This document shows, one piece after another, positions 1,431-58,775 of a DNA stretch of 59,368 nt (its first letter is position 1; each line of letters opens with the position of its first letter). This stretch comes from Gemmatimonas sp. (GTDB taxonomy: Bacteria; Gemmatimonadota; Gemmatimonadetes; Longimicrobiales; Longimicrobiaceae). The stretch spans positions 1 to 59,368 of the forward strand of contig WHSP01000010.1 in NCBI GenBank assembly GCA_009380025.1, in the 5' to 3' direction. The translations under genes and the position numbers were made by a program. The notes beneath the pieces are model-generated. The model was not told where the DNA came from, ran no database searches, and was given only the letters and a program-made list of their open reading frames with translations.

Positions 1431-2708
1431 CTATCGTTCGCCGGCTGCAGCCCCTGTGGCGGGATCCTCGCCGATCAGTTCCAGGGTGAATGCCTCGTGA
1501 AGCGCCTGCACGGCATCGTCCTGCCGCGCCTCCTCGACCAGGACGGTGATCGTGATTCCGGATGTCGACACGGCGTAAACCTCGATCTCCTTCTCGAGAA
1601 GCGACCGGTAGGCACGGGCGTAGACGCCGGCACGTCGGTGCATCCCGCTTCCGATGAGGGCAATCTTTGACAGACCCCGGCGAACCACAATCCCGCCTCC
1701 TCCCATGCCCGGCAGCATCGCGCTCACAAGATCCCCGGCCTCCTGGACCAATTCGTCGTCGAGCGTCAGTTGGAGCTCGATCCGGCCTTCACTGCCCGCC
1801 GACTCGGAAATCATATCCACGCTGATCCCGGCCTCTGCGAGGCCGACCAGTACGGCTGTCACCGTTCGCAGCCCTGCTGGCAACCCGTTGAGCACGAGCT
1901 TGGCCTGTCCCGATTTCGCCGCGACTCCCGTAAGTACGAGTTCTTCCATGCGCTGAGGCTTCCGGGTGACGAATGTGCCGATCGTATCGTCGCCTGTGTC
2001 GAACGCGGACCCGAGCCGAAGGTCGACGTCGTACTTCGCTGCGATCTCGACGGCCCGAGCATGCATGACCTGGGCACCAGCCGACGCGAGTTCCAGCAGC
2101 TCTTCGAAGGAAACCTGAGGGATGATCCGCGCCTCCGGCACTTTGCGGGGGTCGGCCGTATAGACACCCCGAACGTCGGAGTACACTTCGCAGCGGTCGG
2201 CACCGAGCGCCGCGGCGAGCGCGACCGCCGTGGTGTCGGAACCGCCGCGCCCCAGCGTTGTAATCTCCCGCGCCGCACTCACGCCCTGGAAACCAGCGAC
2301 GATGACGACGTTCCCCTGTTCGAGCGCCGCACGCACCCGGTCGCCGCGGATCTCCTTGATCCGGGCGGACATGTGGGCCCCATCCGTGATGATCGCCGCC
2401 TGGCTCCCGGTCAGCGACACTGCTCCTTCTCCCGCCTCCCGAATCGCCATGGCCAGCAGCGCCATCGAGATTCGTTCGCCTGCCGTCAAGAGCATGTCCA
2501 TCTCGCGTGAGTGCCGGACGGCCGCATCTGCGTCGCCAACTACCTCCGCCGCGAGAGCCACGAGATCGTCCGTAGTGTCCCCCATCGCAGAGACCACCAC
2601 GACGAGCTCGTCACCCCGCCGCACGGCCCGCACGACTCTCGCCGCAACCGCTCGAACTCGCTCCGGCGTCGCAACCGAACTCCCGCCGTACTTCTGAACG
2701 ACAAGCAT
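1431..2708 (-). CDS. lysC: aspartate kinase
   Basis: Phosphorylates aspartate, the first step of the aspartate family pathway. The protein (425 aa) opens with KYGGSS at residues 6-11, the kinase substrate/ATP signature, and ends in two ACT domains that usually bind lysine or threonine for feedback control. The frame is open 69 bases further upstream, but the family starts right at MLVVQKYGG, so the ATG at 2708 is preferred; its ribosome site is weak. The 163-base leader between mlaD and this gene is long enough for regulation, but no recognisable lysine riboswitch or attenuator was seen. asd follows directly. Confidence 0.95.
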
Positions 2709-2871
2709 CTGAAAGCCGTTACCAGGCCGTTGATGAACACGCGTTCGCGAATGCCGAAGAGAAATCGTGCAGACCAAGGCACCCGACGAGCCGCGACCGA
2801 GGCGTACGCCTGTACGCCGCAGGGGGCGGCGAGGAGGCGTAACGCAGAGCTGCGCGATTTATCGAAGGCAT

Positions 2872-3972
2872 TCAGAAGATCCGGACTTCTCCGATATACC
2901 GGCCCGGGTTCGCCTGAAGGTCCGAAAGAACGCGCCGAAGGGTTGCGATCGCCGCCTGGGTCTCCTCGAATAGCGCGGGATCCTCGAGCAATCGGCCGAG
3001 CGTTCCCTCTCCGTTGTCGATCCGAGCTGCCGCTCGCTGCACGACGGCGATGGCTTCCCGCGCTTCGACGATCGTCGGGCCGAGCTGGTCGATCTCCGGT
3101 CCGAGCGACTCGAACAGCCTGGACGCACTGGTTGAAAGCTCACCCAGCTCGCCGATTGTCGTGTCCGCCTGTGCGATGAGGGAAGGCACGCCGACAACGG
3201 CGTCGTCGATACTTTGGCTCAGCTCCTCCAGATTCTGGCTCGCCCGCTCCGCGTTGGCGAGAATCTGCTCGATCCGTCCACCCTCGACGAACGCTGCTTC
3301 CACAGACCCTGCAACACGGTCGAATCGCTCCGTCGTCTGGGTGATGTTGTCGGTGGCCACCAGGACGCTCTGGGAGACGTCCCGGTAGGTCTGCGTCTGC
3401 TGGTCGACGAAGCCGGTCAACTGCTCGCTCATCGCCTGCACGTTCTCGATCGTCTCCCGGATTTTGATCGCGGTCTCTTCAGTGAACGCCAGTTCGACAC
3501 GCTCCGCGAGCGTTTCGAGATTGCCGGCGATCCGCGCGCCGACCGCGGTCAGCTGCGTGATGTCGGGAAGCGTGGCGCCAGATAAAACCTGACCTTGTCG
3601 GGCCGTGGTGAATTCCAGCTCTGGATAGCTCGAGCGCGACACGATCGAGGCTTGCCAATCCCCGAAGAGAGACGCGGGGGCGAGCAAGACCGCGGCATCG
3701 GCGGGCGGCACTACCCGCGGGGAAATCTGCATCGCAACGACCACTCCCTCTCCCTCCGCGTCCAGGTCGATCCCCGCCACCCGACCCACCTCGACGCCCC
3801 GGAACTTCACCGGATTGCCCTGTCTCAGCTCTCCGACCTCGCGGAAGACCGCCGCCACTTCGATCGGCTCCTCACCCCATGGGCGGCCGCTCAGCCAGAA
3901 CGCCGCCACGACCGTGAGGATGATCCCCGCAACAACCACGATCCCCACCGCGGCTTCGTTGTTCAGCTTCAT
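2872..3972 (-). CDS. mlaD: MlaD-type MCE-domain lipid transport protein
   Basis: Periplasmic substrate-binding subunit of an Mla/MCE ABC system that moves phospholipid or other lipid between the membranes. Residues 7-27 form the single N-terminal membrane anchor, followed by an MCE domain (about 37-115, with VKFRGVEVGRVAGI typical of the family). A long helical region rich in coiled-coil-like heptads covers the rest. At 366 aa it is longer than E. coli MlaD (about 180 aa) and resembles the extended MCE proteins with a helical needle. It overlaps mlaF by four bases (ATGA), so translation is coupled. The lipid carried cannot be told from sequence. Confidence 0.9.
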   Translation of the reverse strand: MKLNNEAAVGIVVVAGIILTVVAAFWLSGRPWGEEPIEVAAVFREVGELRQGNPVKFRGVEVGRVAGIDLDAEGEGVVVAMQISPRVVPPADAAVLLAPASLFGDWQASIVSRSSYPELEFTTARQGQVLSGATLPDITQLTAVGARIAGNLETLAERVELAFTEETAIKIRETIENVQAMSEQLTGFVDQQTQTYRDVSQSVLVATDNITQTTERFDRVAGSVEAAFVEGGRIEQILANAERASQNLEELSQSIDDAVVGVPSLIAQADTTIGELGELSTSASRLFESLGPEIDQLGPTIVEAREAIAVVQRAAARIDNGEGTLGRLLEDPALFEETQAAIATLRRVLSDLQANPGRYIGEVRIF

Positions 3973-4763
3973 ATCCGCCTCCGGCTAGCCGGCGTGTTTG
4001 CAAAAATTCTCATCCCTCCCGATCCCTCCTCGACGAGTTCTGGCCGGCCCTCCACGAACCCCTTGACCACGGGGTGCTGTGAACGCCGAATCTCTTCCGG
4101 CGTCCCCTCCTGCAACACTCGGCCATCGTAGAGCATTGCGATGCGATCGCTGATGCAATACGCACTGTCCATGTCGTGGGTGATCACCAGGCTGGTGACT
4201 CCCAGCTCATCCCGCATCTTCAAGATCAGCCGGTCGATCACGGTTGTCGTAACCGGATCGAGGCCGCTGGTCGGCTCGTCGTACAGGAGGTACTTGGGCC
4301 CAAATGCAATCGCACGGGCAAGACCGGCCCTCTTCCGCTGTCCGCCGGAAAGCTCCGCCGGAAAATTCTCCTCATAACCCTCCAGCTCTACGCGCTCCAG
4401 CGAGTCCGCGATTCGTTCTTCGATCTCATCCTTCGAAAAGCCCCCATGTTTGATCAACCCCATGGCCAGGTTCTCCGCGACCGTCATCGAATCGAAGAGC
4501 GCGGCGAACTGAAACACGTATCCCACCCTCCGGCGCAGCTCGTACAGGTCCGGCCGACTCAACGACGGGACATCGGTCCCATCCACCCTGACCGTCCCCA
4601 TGTCCGGCTGGAGCAGGCCAACAATGTGCTTCAAGGCAACGGATTTCCCCGCACCAGAAAAACCGACCAGGGCGACTGTATCGCCCTCGCCTACACGCAA
4701 GCTGAGGCCGTTGAGGACCACCTTCGGTCCGAACGACTTGTGCAGGTCGATCATCTCGATCAT
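3969..4763 (-). CDS. mlaF: MlaF-type ABC transporter ATP-binding protein
   Basis: ATPase of the Mla-type lipid ABC transporter (264 aa). Walker A GFSGAGKS is at 34-41, the signature LSGGQRKR starts at 138, and Walker B with DEPTSGLDP is at about 159-170. The open frame extends far upstream inside mlaE, but the ATG at 4763 overlaps the mlaE stop (ATGA) and puts the first beta-strand of the ATPase at the N terminus, so it is the start. An alternative ATG lies three codons later. It is coupled to mlaE upstream and mlaD downstream and should act with both at the inner membrane. Confidence 0.93.
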   Translation of the reverse strand: MIEMIDLHKSFGPKVVLNGLSLRVGEGDTVALVGFSGAGKSVALKHIVGLLQPDMGTVRVDGTDVPSLSRPDLYELRRRVGYVFQFAALFDSMTVAENLAMGLIKHGGFSKDEIEERIADSLERVELEGYEENFPAELSGGQRKRAGLARAIAFGPKYLLYDEPTSGLDPVTTTVIDRLILKMRDELGVTSLVITHDMDSAYCISDRIAMLYDGRVLQEGTPEEIRRSQHPVVKGFVEGRPELVEEGSGGMRIFANTPASRRRI

Positions 4764-49237: not shown

Positions 49238-50164
49238 TTAGGCCAGAACGGTAAGCCTCCCCGGCACGATCTCGATCTCGAGCTCGGTGACCCAATCGGC
49301 GACGAACTCGCCGTCCGCGTGGATGGGAAGCCGTTCCGTGCTACGGACGACGACGCTGCGTCCGCGATGGAGCTCGACGCCCCATTGCCCCAGGTGCTTG
49401 CCTACCATGACCCGTGGGAGGAGGCGCAGGACCCTGGGAAGGCTTCGGCCAGTGGCGATGAGGATGTCGAGCGCGCCGTCGTCGACCTCGGCCCCTGGGC
49501 AGAGCCAAAAATTCCCACCGTGGCACGGCCCGTTGCTGACCGTGGTGAGGATCAACGCTCGATCCGAGATCTGCACTCCGTCCACGAACACGTCGATCCG
49601 GGGCGAGCGAAGCTCTCGTAGCGCCTTCAGCAGAGCCCAGGCGTAGATCGCAGCGCCGCGCAGCCGTTTGATCGCCCTGGCATGGGTCGCCACCTGCGCG
49701 TCGAAACCGACGCCGACTCCGTTCGTGAAGTACCAGGCCCCATCGGGTCCGCCTCCCGTGCAGTGTCGCACTACCTTCCCTACGTCGACCGGCCGCGGCT
49801 CGGCCGTGAGGATTCGACGAACCGCCTCGCCCGGCCGATGTGGGGGCACACCGAGCATCTTCACGAAATCGTTCCCGCTGCCGACCGGCACGATACCGAC
49901 TGGGACCGTAACTCCGTTTCCGGCGGCACACATCAAACCGTTCACTACTTCGTGGACGATTCCGTCACCCCCCACGGCGACGATGGCGGACCACCCATCC
50001 CGAACGGCATCCTGAGCGAGCTCGACTGCGTGCCCGCGATACTCGGTCGGAACCAGGCGGTAGTCGGCGCCGCCGGCCGCAAAGGAGGCCTCGATCGTTG
50101 CCCTCGATTTCGCGGCGCGCCCCCGGCTAGCCAGCGGATTGAAGATAACGAAGTAGGATCTCAA
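49238..50164 (-). CDS. YegS/DagK-family lipid kinase
   Basis: A 308-residue member of the diacylglycerol/lipid kinase family: GGDG at 65-68 followed by EVVNG, a GSGNDF turn at 95-100 and the family's C-terminal beta domain (SNGPCHGGNFWLCPGAEVDDGALDI). Such enzymes phosphorylate diacylglycerol, phosphatidylglycerol or sphingoid bases. The start TTG 50164 overlaps the fumC stop (TTGA) and has AAGG close upstream; it puts the first strand (SYFVIFNPLASRGRA) at the N terminus. It is translated with fumC, but the functional tie is unclear. Confidence 0.88.
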   Translation of the reverse strand: MRSYFVIFNPLASRGRAAKSRATIEASFAAGGADYRLVPTEYRGHAVELAQDAVRDGWSAIVAVGGDGIVHEVVNGLMCAAGNGVTVPVGIVPVGSGNDFVKMLGVPPHRPGEAVRRILTAEPRPVDVGKVVRHCTGGGPDGAWYFTNGVGVGFDAQVATHARAIKRLRGAAIYAWALLKALRELRSPRIDVFVDGVQISDRALILTTVSNGPCHGGNFWLCPGAEVDDGALDILIATGRSLPRVLRLLPRVMVGKHLGQWGVELHRGRSVVVRSTERLPIHADGEFVADWVTELEIEIVPGRLTVLA

Positions 50165-51573
50165 CCCTTCCCACCTGGAATGCCCGGCTCCGTCATCTCG
50201 CGCACGTTCAATACTGCGTCGAGCTGATCGTCCGAGAGAAGACCGCGCCGCCTCACGACATCGCGAACGGATTCGTAATTCTTCGCCGACTCCTTGGCCA
50301 CGGACGACGCCTCGTCGTACCCGATGTACGCGTTCAGCGCCGTTGCGATCGACGGGTTCCGCTCCAGGAGCTGGCGGCACCTCTCCCGGTTCGCTGAGAT
50401 GCCTTCGAGCGCTCGTGTCCGAAATGCATCGCACCCCCGGCTGAGGATGTCGACCGACTGCAAGAAGCTATTAGCCATCACAGGCATCATGACGTTCAGC
50501 TCGAAGTTGCCGTGCTGTCCGGCAACAGTGATCGTCAGATGGCTCCCCATCACCTGCGCCGCAACCATCATCAGTGCCTCGCTCATCACCGGGTTCACCT
50601 TTCCGGGCATAATCGAGCTTCCGGGCTGGATCGCGGGTAGAGAGATCTCGGCGAGTCCCGACGTCGGACCGCTCGCCAGCCACCGGATATCGTTCGCGAT
50701 TTTCAGGAGAGCAACGGCGAGGGTATTGAGCGCACCCGCGGCGAAGACGAATGCGTCTTTTGCCCCCTGTGCCTCGAAGTGGTTGGCGGCTTCGCGGAAC
50801 TCCAGACCGGTCATCTCGTTCAGCCTGGCGATCGCCACACCCGGAAATTCCGGGAGCCGATTGGTTCCCGTCCCAACCGCCGTTCCACCGAGCGCCAACT
50901 CGGAGAGCTCATCCCCCGCGAGGCGAAGACGTCGAATGCAGTGATCGACCTGCGCGGCATACCCCCCGAACTCCTGGCCGAGCCGGACCGGCGTGGCGTC
51001 CATCAAGTGGGTTCGTCCACTCTTGACGACGTCATCGAACTCGGTCGCCTTGACGTCGAGCGCGTCGCGTAGCCGTTCCAGCGAGGGGATGAGGTCGCGT
51101 TCGAGCGCGGCTCGCGCCGACACGTGCATCGCCGTGGGGATCACGTCATTCGAGGACTGCCCCATGTTGACGTGGTCGTTCGGATGTACGGCGCTCGCAC
51201 GCTGTTGCCCGAGTAGCTGCGCCGCCCGGGCGGCGATCACCTCATTGGCGTTCATGTTGCTCGAGGTTCCGCTCCCGGTCTGGAAGATGTCGAGCACGAA
51301 GTGATCGTCCCATCGTCCTTCGCTGACCTCGTCGGCTGCCCGAACAATAGCGTCGCCAATCGTCGAATCGAGCTGATTCAGCTCCATGTTCGCGAGTGCG
51401 GCGGCCTTCTTCACGTGGCCCAACGCGGCGATGAAATGCCGCGAGAACCGAAACCCGCTGATGGGGAAGTTCTCGACCGCGCGCTGAGTCTGCGCGGCAT
51501 ACAGCGCACTCGCGGGCACACGCATCTCGCCGAGCGAATCCTTCTCGACCCGAAAGCCGTCCTCACCTTGCAT
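50161..51573 (-). CDS. fumC: fumarate hydratase class II
   Basis: Hydrates fumarate to malate in the TCA cycle. A 470-residue tetramer-type fumarase with the superfamily signature GSSIMPGKVNP (318-328; catalytic serine 319 or 320), the conserved H189 in GRTHLMDA and the TGSGTSSNMNANE region (99-111). The start ATG 51573 fits the family; a longer frame upstream crosses a dispersed hairpin repeat and is not protein-like. It overlaps the lipid kinase. With sucA-sucB-lpd close by, the area groups TCA-cycle functions. The accessory element begins just upstream of this gene. Confidence 0.96.
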   Translation of the reverse strand: MQGEDGFRVEKDSLGEMRVPASALYAAQTQRAVENFPISGFRFSRHFIAALGHVKKAAALANMELNQLDSTIGDAIVRAADEVSEGRWDDHFVLDIFQTGSGTSSNMNANEVIAARAAQLLGQQRASAVHPNDHVNMGQSSNDVIPTAMHVSARAALERDLIPSLERLRDALDVKATEFDDVVKSGRTHLMDATPVRLGQEFGGYAAQVDHCIRRLRLAGDELSELALGGTAVGTGTNRLPEFPGVAIARLNEMTGLEFREAANHFEAQGAKDAFVFAAGALNTLAVALLKIANDIRWLASGPTSGLAEISLPAIQPGSSIMPGKVNPVMSEALMMVAAQVMGSHLTITVAGQHGNFELNVMMPVMANSFLQSVDILSRGCDAFRTRALEGISANRERCRQLLERNPSIATALNAYIGYDEASSVAKESAKNYESVRDVVRRRGLLSDDQLDAVLNVREMTEPGIPGGKG

Positions 51574-51685
51574 GAGCACCTCTGACAGTACGGGCGTAGA
51601 CTGAAGGCTGTGTGCAGCAGCCTGGTCACTGGAAGCGAGCAGATGAGAATGTGGCGGGGCCGTGGCAGGGATGGCAAATTCCATC

Positions 51686-51754
51686 GTCATTCCCGCGAAC
51701 GCGGGAATCCAGCCACTGTATCCTCACTGGATCCCCGCCTGCGCGGGGATGACA
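51686..51754. repeat. dispersed hairpin repeat (REP/MITE-like)
   Basis: A 69-base element. Its two arms each form a hairpin (TTCCCGCGAACGCGGGAA and ATCCCCGCCTGCGCGGGGAT) and are also complementary to each other (ATCCAG / CTGGAT, GTCAT / ATGAC). This is the widespread 'ATTCCCGCG...GGAATCCAG' type of intergenic repeat. It lies upstream of the fumC start and just before the replication-protein-like gene. A degenerate third arm is near 51809-51833. Confidence 0.75.
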
Positions 51755-51773
51755 AGAGCGACCTCCGGGATCG

Positions 51774-52796
51774 ATGCGTCTGACCTGGGACGGTACGCCC
51801 GGTCGATCGTCATGCCACCCAAGGCGGGGAGTCGTTGCCTGCCTCGAGGGCGAACTCCGCTCCGCCCTTGCCAAGCGGATCTACCAGGTGCTCGCGCTGC
51901 GGATGGCCCGCGGGGTGCGGCCGCCGTTCGTCTTTACGCTCGCTGACTGCCTGGACGAGATCGCCTTCGGTAATGGCCGGAAACCAGGCATGCAGGCAAA
52001 GCAGATATCCTCTGCACTCTGCAGCCTGCAGAAGGCCAGCATCGTACTCTCCCACGAGGTCCGGGAAATCGGCCACGGTGCATACGAGATCGTCGTAGTC
52101 CCTGGGGAGCGGCTGCACGCGGCCGGTCTTTTCCGTGGCGTCGGGGCTCAGGACAAGACGTGGACACGGACTCTTCTCTACCACCTCGGCATCTTCGGCA
52201 TCTCCCTGTCGACGGGCCGTCAGCTCCTCCGGTCCTTCCCGACCCAGACCGTAAACGTTCTGCGGCGCGCCTACTACCTCCAGACGGAGAAGGGAGGCAT
52301 GGATATGAACGGGCGCCCGGTTGAAAACTGGGGCGGGTGGATTCGCGGGGGGATCGAGAACGGGTGGGAGTTTACAGAGCCAGGGTACCTTCGCTGGCTC
52401 GACCGTATGAGCGGTCGGGCGCTCGACGAAGAATCCCTCGTGACGCCGGTAATCGACATCAAGGCCCCGGTCCGGGAACCGAAGGAGACCTCACCTGATC
52501 AATCCCCAACGGCACCGCCGTCGTCGGTAGACGCCGAGTTACCGGCAGGCGAGTGGGGCCAGGCTCTGGAGCGCTTCCGCCCGCAGGTTCCGGCGCTAAC
52601 CTTCGATAGCTGGCTGCGCAACACGTGGCAGATTGAGGTCACCAATGCTCAGGTTCGCGTCGGCACGCCCAACACCTTCGCGGTGGGGTGGATCCAGGAC
52701 AAGTATGGGGAGGCCCTTTCCGCGATCCTTAGCGAGCTTCTGGAGAGGCCCATCTCTCTATCAGTGCACCACGAGGCAGAGCCGCAGTCCGACTGA
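51774..52796 (+). CDS. replication-initiator-like protein with C-terminal DnaA N-domain
   Basis: A 340-residue protein. Residues 25-112 look like a winged-helix DNA-binding fold (CLEGELRSALAKRIYQVLALRM... TLADCLDEIAFG...QISSALCSLQKASIV). Residues 115-215 are helical, 216-258 a Pro/Ser linker, and 259-331 match the DnaA domain-I fold (EWGQALERFRPQVPALTFDSWLRN...VGTPNTFAVGWIQDKYGEAL). DnaA domain I contacts helicase or partner proteins, so this protein may recruit the host replisome. The first 20 residues come from repeat-derived sequence, so the native N terminus is probably lost or the start is internal. An iteron-like region follows. Confidence 0.7.
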   Translation: MRLTWDGTPGRSSCHPRRGVVACLEGELRSALAKRIYQVLALRMARGVRPPFVFTLADCLDEIAFGNGRKPGMQAKQISSALCSLQKASIVLSHEVREIGHGAYEIVVVPGERLHAAGLFRGVGAQDKTWTRTLLYHLGIFGISLSTGRQLLRSFPTQTVNVLRRAYYLQTEKGGMDMNGRPVENWGGWIRGGIENGWEFTEPGYLRWLDRMSGRALDEESLVTPVIDIKAPVREPKETSPDQSPTAPPSSVDAELPAGEWGQALERFRPQVPALTFDSWLRNTWQIEVTNAQVRVGTPNTFAVGWIQDKYGEALSAILSELLERPISLSVHHEAEPQSD

Positions 52797-53055
52797 GCCG
52801 AGACTGACGCTCCCGAGACCATAGGCCGCGGTGCCGCCGCCGGGCAGTTTCGGCCGATTTTCCGAAGGACCTGGGATCTCCGGCGGTTCCCCCGTCGTTG
52901 TTCTGTCTTCCTGTGATTAATCAAAAGTACACCACACGACACTACAAAGGATGGCCGATTCCTCGGCGTATGCCGTTATAGCATAAGTACTTGGCGTTTC
53001 AATAGGTCTTCACTCGGCCGGTGGTCTGGCATGCGGATGCCCCTCTCAGGGGGGT

Positions 53056-53477
53056 CACTCTACCCCACCTCGGATTCCTAGTCCGCCGCATCGGCGTATC
53101 ATCCTCAAAGGGATACCACTCTACCCCACCCGACCGCGTCCCGGGTCGATTTGCTTCGAGGAAGCCCGTCACATCGAATCCCCGCTCTGCAAGATAAAGA
53201 GCAGATGGTAGGGCGAAGATTGGAGAACGGGCGGCGGTCGACGGACCCAAGAGGGTACGCGTACGGACCGCGATCTTGCGGTAGGCTGCGCCGAACGCCT
53301 ACAGTAGCAAGGTATCAGGTAACGTCTTGTCCCTCCGGGGGACACCATCGCGTACCACCCGGTGAAGCAATCGCGGTAGGGTTCGTGGGGGAGCCGCGAT
53401 TGGGTGGGGTAGAGTGGTGTCCCTTTACCAGCCTATCCCGAACCGGGGTAGAGTCCCATTCCGGAGTGGGGTAGGGG
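53056..53477. repeat. five GTGGGGTAGAGTG iteron-like repeats
   Basis: Copies: CACTCTACCCCACC at 53056-53069 and 53117-53130 (one orientation), GGTGGGGTAGAGTG at 53403-53416, GGGGTAGAGT at 53445-53454 and a divergent GTGGGGTAGGGG at about 53466-53477 (opposite orientation). Spacing is irregular (61, about 286, about 40 and 23 bases). The first two face the last three, a divergent layout around about 270 bases. Confidence 0.7.
53107..53426. repeat. 25-bp inverted pair (24/25 match) flanking about 270 bases
   Basis: The arm at 53107-53131 (AAAGGGATACC... to CCC) is the reverse complement of 53402-53426 except for one base. Each contains the iteron core plus a shared AAAGGG outer end. It could be terminal inverted repeats of a MITE-like element; flanking target duplications were not seen. 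Confidence 0.6.
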
Positions 53478-53514
53478 AGCGGTTGATTTACAGGTAGGAT
53501 GTTATCGACAGGCG

Positions 53515-54258
53515 ATGACTGCACACGGCTCGATCGACAGCAGGCGCACCGACCCACAGGTTCTCTCGATCAGCTCGGGAGGGAACCTGGTGGTGTCGGT
53601 GACGGCGGTGCTCGGAGCGATCCATCATGCGGCCGGACCGCTCGCGTCGAGCAAGATGCCTCGGAAGCCGACTTCTGTGGATATGCGCAACGCCGCCGGG
53701 ATCGCGCTGTCAATTTCGGAGCTGGTCCGCGAGTCGGAGGTGCACGCCCGCGAAGCACTCTGGACTGTGGAGGTGCCGGAGGACCCGGTGGAGCTTTCCA
53801 GGCGTGCGGGGGCCTCGCTCGACAAGACCGAGGACGCTGTGCGCTTACTCGTTGCCGCGGAGGTCGTCTCGCGCGTGGGATTGACGGGAGGAGGTGCGCG
53901 CCTGCGGGTGGAGGAGGCGATGTTCGCAGAGGAGCCTGTGCTGGCACAGGTGGCGTGGGAGGAGGTTCGTGAGCGGCTCGCTGCGGTGCGCGCCAGCGTC
54001 ACGCCGGCACTGGCCGTGGTGCGGGAGTTGGCGCGCTCAACACGTTTGGCTGAAACCAAGGAGGCCGGGAGCAGCTGGGCCAGCCTGACTCTCGGCCGAT
54101 TCGTTGAGCGGACGCTCTTCCAGCGCACGGCTGTGTCCAGGGCGATATCAGCCTTACAGGAGGCTGGGGTGATCGAGCGGGGACAGCCGCGGGGACATGA
54201 GGGGCAGTACCGGCCTGTTGCCGGTGGCGTTCGGCTTCGCAGGAGAGCCGTTCGATAA
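53515..54258 (+). CDS. winged-helix DNA-binding protein
   Basis: A 247-residue protein. Two helix-rich segments resemble winged helices: about residues 75-130 (DPVELSRRAGASLDKTEDAVRLLVAAEVVSRV) and about 185-235 (SLTLGRFVERTLFQRTAVSRAISALQEAGVIERGQP). The second has the classic recognition-helix/wing pattern. Residues before 60 look disordered. The start ATG 53515 is supported by domain content; another ATG in a different frame is nearer a ribosome-like site. It sits right after the iteron region and could repress it or act as a partition or replication regulator of the element. Family unassigned. Confidence 0.65.
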   Translation: MTAHGSIDSRRTDPQVLSISSGGNLVVSVTAVLGAIHHAAGPLASSKMPRKPTSVDMRNAAGIALSISELVRESEVHAREALWTVEVPEDPVELSRRAGASLDKTEDAVRLLVAAEVVSRVGLTGGGARLRVEEAMFAEEPVLAQVAWEEVRERLAAVRASVTPALAVVRELARSTRLAETKEAGSSWASLTLGRFVERTLFQRTAVSRAISALQEAGVIERGQPRGHEGQYRPVAGGVRLRRRAVR

Positions 54259-54505
54259 CAACTCCGGGGTGCCTACGCCGTCAGATCGGCCAAGAGGGGC
54301 CGCTGAGGTGGTGGTATCTCCGCCGCGTGCCCCTGCGGCACCTGTGGTTCCACCTTCCACACAGGCGGTAGGCCCCAGGCCGCGGGTTCATGTCGGTGGC
54401 ATTCCAGTCGAGGTCCCGCAGGGCATGTCAGTTCGAGTTGAGCTGGATGCTGAGGGACGCCAGTACGTGCACATCGGCCCGCACGTGGTGATCGGACCGT
54501 TGTAG
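54197..54505 (+). CDS. small accessory protein, unknown
   Basis: A 102-residue frame overlapping the end of the winged-helix gene by 62 bases in another frame. Its first half is Pro/Ala-rich, and its end (VHVGGIPVEVPQGMSVRVELDAEGRQYVHIGPHVVIGPL) alternates hydrophobic residues like beta-strands. Only a short GGGG precedes the ATG, so a start further in is possible. No known family. The overlap suggests translational coupling with the regulator, typical of compact element genes. Confidence 0.45.
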   Translation: MRGSTGLLPVAFGFAGEPFDNNSGVPTPSDRPRGAAEVVVSPPRAPAAPVVPPSTQAVGPRPRVHVGGIPVEVPQGMSVRVELDAEGRQYVHIGPHVVIGPL

Positions 54506-54608: not shown

Positions 54609-56111
54609 TCAGTTAGAATAGCTGCCGAGGATGCCCGAGAACTCAAAAGGTTCTTGTAGTATCCCGCTGCAGGTAGGGGATGCCCAGGGAGTGATGCCTT
54701 CCGGGCATTCCACGTCCCGGGTCATCGACCACATCGAGAGCGAGCCGAACTGTATCTGCCCAGCAAACTCGAGCAGCTCAAGCGCGTCCTGCTGGCGAAA
54801 GACCTCTGATTGCACGTCGTTTTGACCGATCATCACGGTCACTTCGACCATTGCCCACAGCTCGGCAGTTGAGCGATTCGGATACAGCTCCGCGAGCTGC
54901 TCTTGGGTATTGGTCGCGGCCTCGATCGCGAATTTGCCCATGCGGCCGTCTGGATCTGGAGCGACCGCATCGCCGTAATCCATCGCCATGATGTTTACGC
55001 CATCGATACGCACACCAGAGGCGATCGCGCTCATCAACACTTGGAGGCCATCTGCAGTAAGGCCCTGCGGCAGCACTGGCAGGGTGAGCGAGACGTCGAG
55101 CGCACGCCCTGCTTCTTGTGCCCGCCGCTGCAGCTCGGCGATCGCCTGCGAGCGCCGCTCGATTGAGACAGGATCGGCAATTGCGCCACCCTCGATGTCG
55201 AAGTCTACCTTGGTGAGCCCGTAGAGGTCGACCACCGCTGCGTATTGGGCGACCAGCGAATCAACGGATGAGCACGACTCGGCGAGCTCGACGCCGTTGG
55301 CGCCACCGAAGGAAATTCGGACATCGCCACCGGTCGAGCGTAGGTCGCGAATCTCCTCGCTCATGAAGTTCTCTGAAAGTGGTATTACTCCGCCCCAAGC
55401 TGCCTTACATTGGCTGGCACCGTTGACGATGAAGGCGAGGTTGAAGTGCGTGACGCCGGCCTCAACAGCGAGCGCATCGAGGTCGGGGGGCGGGGACAGG
55501 AGCACGTCGAGGTAGGGCGAGAACTCATCCCTGCCCGAGGTGCCGTCGCCGGCATCGCTGCCGTCACCAGGGGCACCATCGTCCCCGTCGTCTGGCGGAT
55601 CGCTGTCTTCCCCACCTCCAGCACAGAGCTGGTCGTTCAACAGACAGTTCGACGGGTCGCTCCAGACGCCCGAGTAGGTGCCCTCGAAGCCGATGGTCAC
55701 AGTCGCGTCCGGCGGGATCGCCTCCGTCCAGGGTACGGGGGTGATCGTCACCTGGCCGCCCTGGCTCTCGAGCTGGCCGTTCCATGCGCTGGTAATGTTG
55801 ATGTTCGACGGCAGGTTGAACTGGAGGCTCCACCCCCTGAGGGTCGAGTCAGTTCCGTTGTAGATCCGGTACTCGGCCACGAACCCGGTGCCCCAGTCTG
55901 AAGTCTTGACAAAAGTGGCGATTGGCGGTCGAAGTCCTGCCTCTTGGGCCTGAGCCGACAGCGGGTTCAGCGAATCCTCCGGTTGCTCGGACCCCGGCTC
56001 CGACATCGTTACATCGCTACAGGCCAGCGCGGGTAGCGTGACAGCGGCGAGCAACGCGTTGAAGGCTCGTTGGCGTGCACTACGTGCGAGGCGAGGCGCA
56101 GTGAGGGACAT
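54609..56111 (-). CDS. chitinase-type GH18 lipoprotein with CBM2-like domain
   Basis: A 500-residue exported glycoside hydrolase. The signal peptide ends in lipobox A-L-A-C with the lipidated cysteine at 31. Next come a CBM2-like cellulose/chitin-binding module (about 63-165, SDWGTGFVAEYRIYNGTDSTLRGW...), a Gly/Asp-rich linker (166-196) and a GH18 barrel (197-495) with D303-F-D305-I-E307. E307 is the expected catalytic acid, and the family's DxxDxDxE reads here with its first Asp missing (LTKVDFDIE). Chitin or a related glucan is the likely substrate. A GGAGGG ribosome site precedes ATG 56111. It was probably acquired with the accessory region. Confidence 0.9.
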   Translation of the reverse strand: MSLTAPRLARSARQRAFNALLAAVTLPALACSDVTMSEPGSEQPEDSLNPLSAQAQEAGLRPPIATFVKTSDWGTGFVAEYRIYNGTDSTLRGWSLQFNLPSNINITSAWNGQLESQGGQVTITPVPWTEAIPPDATVTIGFEGTYSGVWSDPSNCLLNDQLCAGGGEDSDPPDDGDDGAPGDGSDAGDGTSGRDEFSPYLDVLLSPPPDLDALAVEAGVTHFNLAFIVNGASQCKAAWGGVIPLSENFMSEEIRDLRSTGGDVRISFGGANGVELAESCSSVDSLVAQYAAVVDLYGLTKVDFDIEGGAIADPVSIERRSQAIAELQRRAQEAGRALDVSLTLPVLPQGLTADGLQVLMSAIASGVRIDGVNIMAMDYGDAVAPDPDGRMGKFAIEAATNTQEQLAELYPNRSTAELWAMVEVTVMIGQNDVQSEVFRQQDALELLEFAGQIQFGSLSMWSMTRDVECPEGITPWASPTCSGILQEPFEFSGILGSYSN

Positions 56112-56372
56112 TGCGTGGAACCCTCCGGTGACGGGGACGAGGCCATTTGATGTGAGCCGTTGCTTTGGGCCCAAAGCTTAGCTGGTAGATCTTGCACGTC
56201 AATGCCTGCTTCAATCTCCGAAGTTTTCCCATGAGCTGCTGACGGTTACCGACCGACAAGACTTTCCCCGCCAGGCGCAACCGGCCACCAGGAGAGAAGA
56301 GGGAGAGAGTGAACGGAAACCGGTTAGTCCGATCCGTCATCACCGATTCCTCACACCACCAGGAGGACCGCA

Positions 56373-57203
56373 ATGCCTGCTGAACTCGCCTACACCGACG
56401 GCACCGCCGATTTTCTCGAGGTCGGCACCGGGCGCAGCGCCTGGCACCGGGAGGGCCACCTCATCCCACACGGCCGCGAGCTCACGATAGCGGCTGCTTT
56501 GGAGCTGATCCACGGCGACTACGAAGTCGTGCGTCAACCGACGTTCTACGCACCGGACGAAGCGGGCATTGAGATCCGCCAAAGCAGGCGCGCGTTCCTG
56601 ACTGTTCGCAGCGACACGGGCCAGGAGCTCGGCGCCGTCGGGCCGGGCTACACGGTGCTCCAGAACCGCGATGCGTTCCGAGCGCTTGAACCGCTCGTGG
56701 ACGAGGGCGTGGTCCGGCTCGAGACCGGCGGGGTGCTGCGGTCCGGCGCCGACATCTGGATGCTCGGCCGGTTTGACATCGAGCGGTTCGGGCTGGTGGT
56801 ACGCGAGGTATTCGCCGATGAGGTCGTACCGTTTGCCCTGTTTAGCAACAACCACAGTGGCCGTCGCACCGCGTGCGTGGCGCTGACGCCGATCCGCGTG
56901 GTTTGCGGAAACACGCTCGGGTTCGCCGAGCGCCGCGGCGACAGCGGCACGGACCGCATGATCAAGATCAGCCACACCGGCGAGGCGGCGACGAAGATGG
57001 TCGAAGCCGCGGAGACGCTGCTCGGCGGGCTGATCGAGCGGTTCGAGGCGGTCGCGAGGCAGTACCGTCGGCTCAAAGCTACGCGTCTGCCCGAGTACCT
57101 GTTCACCCGTCTCGTCCTGGACGAGGTCGCGCCCGACCCGCGCTGGCGCCCGAACTTCAACCCGGAAGCTCGGACTGCTGAACTGGTGCTCCGCCGCGCG
57201 TAG
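56373..57203 (+). CDS. DUF932 (phage/plasmid-type) protein, cut short by a stop codon
   Basis: A 276-residue product of the DUF932/TIGR03299 family found on plasmids and phages. It matches the family from residue 1 (AWHREGHLIPHGRELT, SRRAFLTVRSDTGQELGAVGPGYTVLQNRDAF, LFSNNHSGRRTACVALTPIRVVCGNTL). An AGGAGG ribosome site precedes ATG 56373. Translation stops at TAG 57201-57203. In-frame sequence after it (KRDELRRLWDEGEGHTGDHSAW) still looks like the normal C-terminal region of this family, so the gene is truncated. It is probably inactive or read through. Confidence 0.85.
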   Translation: MPAELAYTDGTADFLEVGTGRSAWHREGHLIPHGRELTIAAALELIHGDYEVVRQPTFYAPDEAGIEIRQSRRAFLTVRSDTGQELGAVGPGYTVLQNRDAFRALEPLVDEGVVRLETGGVLRSGADIWMLGRFDIERFGLVVREVFADEVVPFALFSNNHSGRRTACVALTPIRVVCGNTLGFAERRGDSGTDRMIKISHTGEAATKMVEAAETLLGGLIERFEAVARQYRRLKATRLPEYLFTRLVLDEVAPDPRWRPNFNPEARTAELVLRRA

Positions 57204-57299
57204 CGGAAGCGCGACGAGCTTCGCCGGCTTTGGGACGAGGGCGAGGGCCACACAGGCGATCATAGCGCCTGGGATTGCTGTTCATACTGCACCTCCTGA
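57204..57299 (+). pseudogene. broken C-terminal tail of the DUF932 gene
   Basis: Continues the DUF932 frame after the TAG for about 23 codons with family-like residues (RKRDELRRLWDEGEGH...SAW), then changes to unrelated Cys-rich codons and stops at 57299. The switch falls at about 57275, next to the end of the recombinase frame, which suggests the element border cut this gene. Confidence 0.5.
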
Positions 57300-58775
57300 C
57301 GTGGATTGAACACGAATGGACTGCTTTCGCTTGCGCCTGCGCGATGTTTGGGTGCTGGCCTCATCATTCTTCGGTCGCTCGAAGAGGAGCTGGCCGCGTC
57401 CATCACAGCGGTATCCGGATAGCGTGCCTCTGGCGTGGCGATTCAGGACAGCCGACGGAGTGATCCCCAGGTGGGCGGCCAACTCAGCGACGGTCCACAG
57501 CCCGCGGTCCCGGAGCCGCTGATAGCGACTCTTGATGCCGTGCCGGCAACGGAACTCGCGAACGCGCTCCAATGTGAAGGGAAGGCCGGCTCCGGTACGC
57601 AAGCCCTCTTGGTTGAGCCGCTCGGCGATCTCGTCTTCGGCGTAGTCGTCTAGCATGCGATCGATCCGTTCGCGGACGGCAGGGTCGGCTCGTCGAAGAT
57701 CAGCGGCGGAACGCGGTAGGGGAAGCGCCAGGCTGCGGGTTGCGCCGCCTTTGAACCGGATATGAGCTTCGATGGCCCCGCCCTTGATCAGGGTGACGTT
57801 CTCGATGATCAGGCGCGCCAGCCGTTTCTTCTCCCGCTGGGGCGTACGCGGATCTCGCCAGAGGCGCGGAAAGTCGGTGGCAAGAGCCAGGATCTCCTGC
57901 TTCTGCGCCTCGTCGGTGCCCTCGAGGTCGGCCTTTCGCTCCCGTTCATAGACCTCGCGTGCCTCGGTGAGACGACGGAGTGCGTCGTTCCAATCCGCTT
58001 CCAGCGCGTCCGCAACCAAGCGGTGATTTGGGTCGACTTGGCGGTAGCGCCGCTCTGCGAGCTCGGCCTCATAGCGGGCACGCTCTACGTGCTGACGACG
58101 CAGTCGGTCCAACTCCTCGGACCGTCGCTCTATCTCGTCTCCCACGGCGAGGGCGACCTCGAGATCCAGAGGGGTCAGGACCTCTACAAGCAGATTCCCG
58201 ATGGCTTCGTCCACGGCTTTGCTGTGGATACTTTGACAAGGGGGTCGGCCGTGAAACACCCGGTGGGTAAGGCAGCGGTAGGTCGGCACCTTGGTGCCAT
58301 CGCTTCGGACGTAATAGTGGACCGTCATCCGTGCTCCACAGCGACCGCAGAGCACGAGTCCCTGGAGCAGTGCGGGGCCTTCCCGCGGCGGGCCGCGGTG
58401 CCGATCGGCTCCATAGGCCCAGGCGTTTTCCCGGAGGCGCTGCAAGTTTGCCTCGTATTGCGCCCAAGTGATATAGCCCTCGTGGGCGTCAGGGATCAGT
58501 ACCTGCCAGTCCTGCTGGGGCAAAGGCTCGGTCCGCACCCCGCCGTCGGGTTTGCGGCGAGAGCGGGTGCGTCCGTACACAAAGGCTCCGGCGTAGCGGG
58601 GGTTGTGCAGGATATGGACAGCCCGGGGGAAAGTCAGCGAGCGGAAGGTTACCTCTCCCTTGTGAGCGCGGTACTCACTACGTACTGCGGGGCCGCTCCT
58701 ACCGGACGCGACATCACAAAGAGGAGGTGAATCCACCCGCGGAGGAGGCCGCCTAGCTTCGCCCGGTGACGACAT
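57282..58775 (-). pseudogene. large serine recombinase lacking its N-terminal catalytic domain
   Basis: A 497-codon open frame that matches only the C-terminal two thirds of a large serine recombinase. It has the recombinase domain (from about residue 38, TFRSLTFPRAVHILHNPRYAGAFVYGRT), the zinc ribbon (LCGRCGARMTVHYYV...YRCLTHRV), a long coiled coil and a further helical and helix-turn-helix tail (GLWTVAELAAHLGITPSAVLNRHARGTL). The resolvase domain with the nucleophilic serine is absent; the first 38 residues look unrelated, and only about 130 bases separate it from the next promoter. It cannot catalyse recombination alone. Its end touches the broken DUF932 gene. Confidence 0.8.

Follow-up and report, generated by a model that had tools for sequence, protein, structure and literature searches.

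The window examined here, a stretch of 59,368 nucleotides from contig C11 of a Longimicrobiaceae genome (G000), holds an open reading frame of 340 amino acids (51774-52796, forward strand), followed by a gene-poor region with repeated motifs and by a winged-helix gene. On its other side, the frame lies head to head with fumC. In the following, genomes of relatives are designated by G numbers and their loci by L numbers. The features are collected in Table 1.

Table 1. Features of the rep locus and its flanks in the window
Feature	Position	Strand	Evidence or remark
fumC (class II fumarate hydratase), chromosomal flank left of the junction	50161-51690	-	same-family relatives at 73-81% identity
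REP-like palindrome (51686-51753; GTCATTCCCGCGAACGCGGGAATCC...GGGGATGAC) and decayed second copy (51809-51830)	51686-51830		chromosomal side of the junction; inverted repeat I4
Recombination junction; full-length Rep homology starts (Rep residue 244)	51831-51855		tblastn/blastp start points
RepC, C-terminal portion of a split RPA-type initiator: second winged-helix-like region, then linker and DnaA domain I	51846-52796	+	31-34% identity, alignment A1
DnaA domain I (PF11638), C terminus of RepC	52554-52733	+	E=6.7e-10; alignment A6
AT-richer patch	52897-52976		up to 57% AT per 60 bp within a 64% GC region
Iteron, left cluster, copy 1	53056-53069	-	
Iteron, left cluster, copy 2	53117-53130	-	
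Iteron, right cluster, copy 1	53403-53416	+	faces the left cluster
Iteron, right cluster, copy 2	53445-53454	+	degenerate
Iteron, right cluster, copy 3	53466-53474	+	degenerate; 23 bp from copy 2, a spacing also found in relatives
Winged-helix protein, frame broken	53515-54258	+	relatives' counterpart lies between iterons and ParA; 25% identity (A2); 34% over 92 aa to the L044 gene, E=6e-8
C-terminal tail of the winged-helix gene, out of frame	54197-54505	+	VHVGGIPVEV...IGPHVVIGPL; relatives MRLPTNAPIQIGGE...IGPVRIGPYDG
Genes in the place of ParA-ParB: GH18/CBM2 chitinase, DUF932 protein, serine recombinase lacking the catalytic N-terminal domain	54609-58775		
AAA ATPase, cut by the contig end	58976-59368	+	44% over 112 aa, E=4e-21, to the gene 3' of ParAB on the G010 replicon contig

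An initiator family ending in DnaA domain I

The C-terminal DnaA domain-I fold proposed in an earlier note was confirmed by a Pfam profile search, which placed DnaA_N (PF11638) at residues 261-320 of the open reading frame (E=6.7e-10; 39 bits against a cut-off of 24.6). A profile of the protein family (Rep) described below also matched solved DnaA domain I chains (4tps, E=4.8e-7; 2e0g, E=1.4e-5). In alignment A6 the equivalents of E. coli DnaA W6, W25, F46 and W50 are invariant, F46 being presumably a residue that contacts DnaB; the equivalent of E21 is not conserved. The cut-off is likewise reached by the relatives in G010, G013 and G184 (39-45 bits). The C termini of Gemmatirosa and of some other Rep proteins have diverged and are still DnaA-domain-I-like (83% probability and E=8.7e-6 in a profile comparison built on shallow alignments).

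Outside DnaA_N, Pfam named no family in the open reading frame. The winged-helix-like character of residues 20-230 was not shown by Pfam and is deduced from the homology to RPA-type initiators. An AlphaFold model of the window protein, computed with no alignment supplied, reached a mean pLDDT of 39, too low to be of use. A phage search gave no match, PHROGs contained nothing for the window protein and IMG/VR returned none.

Intact relatives of the window protein comprise 551 and 552 amino acids, and the window sequence aligns to residues 244-546 of these at 31-34% identity (alignment A1). The open reading frame thus represents only the C-terminal ~55% of an RPA-type initiator of ~550 amino acids; it is called RepC below. 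Of 60 relatives searched, three further Longimicrobiaceae genomes (G013, G010 and G005) gave matches extending beyond the shared DnaA domain; all remaining matches were to DnaA itself. Against a plasmid collection, tblastn gave matches only on the two megaplasmids of Gemmatirosa kalamazoonensis, which are circular and 1,106 and 1,041 kb in size (PMC3974934). Three Rep family members match the Pfam family Replication initiator protein A (PF10134) with 35.3, 28.8 and 27.9 bits against a cut-off of 27 bits; others score lower.

A contig search across genomes gave no match with the window protein as query, and with the G010 Rep its sole match was the Longimicrobiaceae contig JAUJOM010000075.1. Rep-positive genomes are few within the Longimicrobiaceae, and ParB was found in 3 of 20 relatives. 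This rare and patchy occurrence argues for an accessory element. G010 holds another, differently truncated rep copy on its contig C41. G265 carries at least three distinct family members on separate contigs (C1, L132; C3, L138; C4, L127), and several secondary replicons may coexist in this genome.

Facing iterons and the gene order of the replicon

The intergenic region (52797-53514, 718 bp) is gene-poor and contains five repeats with a GGGGTAG core. Their relatedness, noted earlier, stands: the family of repeats scores 56, whereas 30 dinucleotide shuffles averaged 31.9 and did not exceed 40. Among the repeats are two inverted 32-nt arms, separated by 256 nt and complementary at 91%. The 12-mer GGGGTAGAGTGG has only two exact occurrences in the 5-Mb assembly, and both belong to this locus. 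The left and right clusters, on the reverse and the forward strand, face each other across about 280 bp. The AT-richer patch is present as described before. The two DnaA-box-like sites of the earlier note also exist, with one mismatch each (52912, reverse strand; 53502, forward strand). However, the window holds 13 such sites where 15.7 are expected by chance, and the two intergenic ones are not conserved in relatives; DnaA boxes were consequently discarded as evidence for an origin.

Facing clusters, 210-290 bp apart, lie between rep and the winged-helix gene at L042, L043, L044, L041 and L127, and spacings of 23, 49 and ~72 bp recur among the related loci. This conserved topology upholds the iteron-type nature of the repeats. 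At three loci these spacings stand in mirror order on the two sides (L042, 7528-8072; L043, 8370-8935; L044, 833-1400), which may reflect a fixed nucleoprotein geometry. The iteron sequence itself is lineage-specific: relatives in the Longimicrobiaceae have TCCGGTGGCGCCCCTATGT, Gemmatirosa plasmid 2 has GGGACCTCCAACGTTCAC and the window has GGTGGGGTAGAGTGGTGTCC. The likeness between the window and its relatives is one of layout only. On Gemmatirosa plasmid 2 (L041) the repeats beside rep score 76 against a shuffle maximum of 58. Facing inverted repeats beside rep also occur on Gemmatirosa plasmid 1 (L040), where the family score is not above that of the shuffles; the score at L127 did not exceed all shuffles. 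Rep followed by repeats is thus found on free plasmids, those of Gemmatirosa. Both checks by which the earlier note could have failed, on the DnaA_N hit and on homologues with repeats on plasmids, therefore came out in its favour.

In G013 and G010 the gene order is Rep, iteron region, winged-helix gene, ParA and ParB. A 284-kb contig of G265 and the Gemmatirosa plasmids likewise encode ParA and ParB near rep. With relatives on circular megaplasmids beside ParAB, the plasmid-type replicon proposed in the earlier note is supported.

The winged-helix gene of the window stops early, and its conserved tail runs on in another frame. Its product, the winged-helix regulator of the earlier note, is only weakly MarR-like (E=1.7e-4, below the Pfam cut-off), and the winged-helix protein of G013 found no match when searched in G000. 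It is consequently the match to L044, together with the tail and the position, that makes the gene homologous to that of the relatives. The AAA ATPase gene at the window end matches the plasmid backbone. Between the backbone genes sits a chitinase gene (GH18 + CBM2, 54609-56174).

The two halves of rep and their junctions

The missing N-terminal half of the initiator lies elsewhere in the same genome. When a profile of the N-terminal Rep region was searched against 395 genomes of the phylum, G000 was matched again, on contig C222 (77090-77767; profile positions 14-233; E=2.3e-45), and the window covers positions 228-396 of the same profile. This segment, RepN (C222:77093-77784), corresponds to residues 22-247 of the L043 protein at 39% identity, and RepC corresponds to residues 244-545 at 31%. 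RepN ends with ...WLDVEVHNSLQ and RepC starts with EGELRSALAKRIYQ. With PF10134, RepN scores 21.4 bits (E=2e-4), below the 27-bit cut-off.

At the window junction, RepC adjoins fumC; the chromosomal location assumed earlier is supported. The reciprocal junction lies near position 77784 of C222, where a gene of the HAD family (77764-78288, reverse strand) stands tail to tail with RepN and has its stop codon at the junction. HAD and fumC occur in one copy each in G000. The two junctions predict that both genes were once neighbours, and this prediction held in relatives. In G003 (fumC 62346-63815, HAD 63947-64447) and G010 (fumC 2139-3548, HAD 3693-4211) the genes form a tandem on the reverse strand, with fumC directly downstream of HAD. 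They share orientation within 7 kb in G013, G014 and G006, and are adjacent and convergent in G009. In total, 6 of the 10 relatives having HAD carry both genes on one contig within 7 kb. A reciprocal exchange between the interior of rep and the HAD-fumC spacer thus explains both contigs; for a single recombination within rep, each of the two reciprocal junctions is in hand. No target-site duplication was seen at the junctions.

The REP-like palindrome next to the window junction has about 50 matches across the assembly. To the earlier note, the N terminus of the protein appeared overwritten by a dispersed repeat. An insertion of this kind was rejected because the N half exists on C222; the gene was instead severed by recombination, and the repeat belongs to the fumC side.

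The recombination was most likely the integration of a plasmid, or else possibly a later inversion. An exchange between plasmid and chromosome gives the former and an exchange within one molecule the latter; the junctions are identical either way. The composition of C222 left of RepN is farther from that of the chromosome (mean r about 0.86, against 0.93 on the right side and 0.91 in the window), which leans towards integration. A SecD-like gene, usually chromosomal, lies on the same side at 5.9-7.7 kb and leans away from it. Terminase-like and transposase-like genes at C222:15503-33651, also left of RepN, suggest a prophage or other mobile element there.

If an inversion between rep and the HAD-fumC spacer had split the gene, the replicon would have been integrated elsewhere earlier. 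The locus would still be a dead plasmid origin, and the HAD-fumC spacer would not be the integration site. Such an event yields exactly the two junctions with the orientations seen, and the varying spacing and orientation of HAD and fumC in relatives (convergent in G009, spaced in G013 and G014) indicate that rearrangement at this place is not rare. Nevertheless, one extra event would be required, the relatives of Rep sit on plasmids and the composition is shifted left of RepN, so that we consider the inversion unlikely.

A much smaller chance is given to the possibility that C11 and C222 are chimaeric assemblies and that the real organism holds an intact rep on a free plasmid. G000 is a draft of 478 contigs in which the two junctions are unconnected, and some 90 bp separate the C11 junction from a dispersed repeat. 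However, repeat-driven misassembly is not expected to create two reciprocal chimaeras at the same codon with ancestral neighbours, HAD and fumC, as partners. Moreover, the C222 junction has no REP copy and the other lesions (missing ParA, ParB fragment) are independent of such an error.

Lesions and probable decay of the locus

Several lesions accompany the split. RepN has no in-frame ATG, GTG or TTG where relatives start, and the ATG upstream is out of frame. No ParA of the plasmid type was found in G000; its sole ParA is of the chromosomal type and is encoded on C277, which also carries the organism's own dnaA. ParB is represented in G000 by a 71-residue fragment only, at the edge of C179 (C179:5-205) and 56-64% identical to ParB of G010. 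C179 is a 3.4-kb contig on which the fragment sits beside unrelated sequence. A complete rep and partition genes beside it, both found in relatives, are absent from G000, which marks the window locus as a remnant. Single-base frame breaks may be assembly errors, which would leave the split of rep, the absence of ParA and the ParB fragment unaffected. Both RepN and RepC are still long open frames, so the decay is recent or a part has been kept.

In another reading, RepC would be a live, domesticated protein, short and made of a winged helix plus DnaA domain I, which attaches to the iterons and either supplies helicase or controls genes in the vicinity, in the manner of the HTH_36-DnaA_N proteins on Bacillota plasmids. 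A 340-aa open frame is indeed retained, the iterons are still recognizable and an equally short architecture (HTH_36 plus C-terminal DnaA_N) occurs on pTHECO01 and pDMT04. Against this, RepC has no start signal in common with its relatives, the adjoining gene is frame-broken and no ortholog with the same truncation start was seen in other genomes; domestication is accordingly very improbable. Least probable of all is the remnant of an integrative conjugative element: a recombinase gene is nearby and such elements, too, can carry initiators of the RPA and HTH types, but the window contains no tRNA, no relaxase or conjugation gene was recognized beside rep, and the family members with ParAB reside on large circular plasmids typed as non-mobilizable.

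A dead integrated replicon is the best reading of the locus, and its origin in G000 is most likely silent. The earlier suspicion that the locus may be dead is thereby strengthened to probably dead by the split rep, the lost RepN start, the broken frame and the state of ParA and ParB. The locus is probably what is left of the origin region of a plasmid, perhaps a megaplasmid, which recombined with a Longimicrobiaceae chromosome by a crossover inside rep.

In intact relatives, an initiator of ~550 amino acids, composed of an RPA-type N half and a second winged-helix-like half, would bind the two facing iteron clusters. Bound between rep and the winged-helix gene, it would melt the DNA. Its C-terminal DnaA domain I may then bring in the host DnaB helicase without a separate DnaA, and ParA-ParB would segregate the copies. 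In G000, a crossover inside rep near residue 245 would have joined the plasmid to the chromosome between HAD and fumC, leaving RepN beside HAD on C222 and RepC, the iterons and the winged-helix gene beside fumC in the window. The crossover would inactivate the initiator, so that the second origin would be silenced. For iteron plasmids a contact between Rep and DnaB is reported to be necessary, and DnaA domain I takes part in helicase loading (PMC4980987); the proposed helicase recruitment would carry this over to the Rep family.

Relation to known initiators and significance

The N half of the Rep family resembles RPA initiators (PF10134; E=2e-4 for RepN, relatives above the cut-off). Unlike these, the family adds a second winged-helix-like half and the C-terminal DnaA domain I. 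RepE of F, TrfA of RK2 and pi of R6K, which have two winged helices, would be comparable in that Rep is expected to bind iterons beside its own gene. In contrast, no significant sequence match links them to the family (TrfA reaches only E=0.022, for one relative). Furthermore, their iterons are arranged head to tail instead of in facing clusters, and the helicase contact of the Rep family would come via a DnaA-type domain. The HTH_36-DnaA_N proteins of the Bacillota plasmids pTHECO01 and pDMT04 share an N-terminal HTH and a C-terminal DnaA_N, but are shorter, belong to another HTH family and have no RPA part. Chromosomal DnaA has the same domain I with the W6, W25, F46 and W50 equivalents; it also possesses the AAA+ domain III and the DNA-binding domain IV, both of which Rep lacks, and the domain I of Rep is C-terminal. 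As pTHECO01 and pDMT04 show, plasmid replication proteins equipped with a DnaA domain I are in themselves no novelty. The union of an RPA-type Rep with DnaA domain I and its spread in Gemmatimonadota were not described in the literature searched, the coverage of which was limited; the same literature yielded no paper on Rep proteins bearing a DnaA_N domain, although such papers may well exist.

A wider proposal, which we make tentatively and with more doubt than confidence, is that Gemmatimonadota megaplasmids use a widespread initiator with its own DnaA domain I, through which the helicase would be recruited without DnaA, and that G000 represents the fusion of a megaplasmid with the chromosome in which the second origin was silenced in the same step. 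G000 measures 5.0 Mb and its congener G001 2.8 Mb, both being nearly complete. A replicon of megabase scale absorbed by the chromosome would fit this gap in size; other causes fit too.

It is a standing question how plasmid initiators come into contact with the helicase of the host, and for this family the answer may lie in the fused DnaA domain I of Rep. The family can also serve to mark secondary replicons in this poorly cultivated phylum; the megaplasmids of the phylum are unannotated in the plasmid collection used. Finally, a split rep with both of its junctions offers a direct trace of how a chromosome can absorb a replicon with a competing origin.
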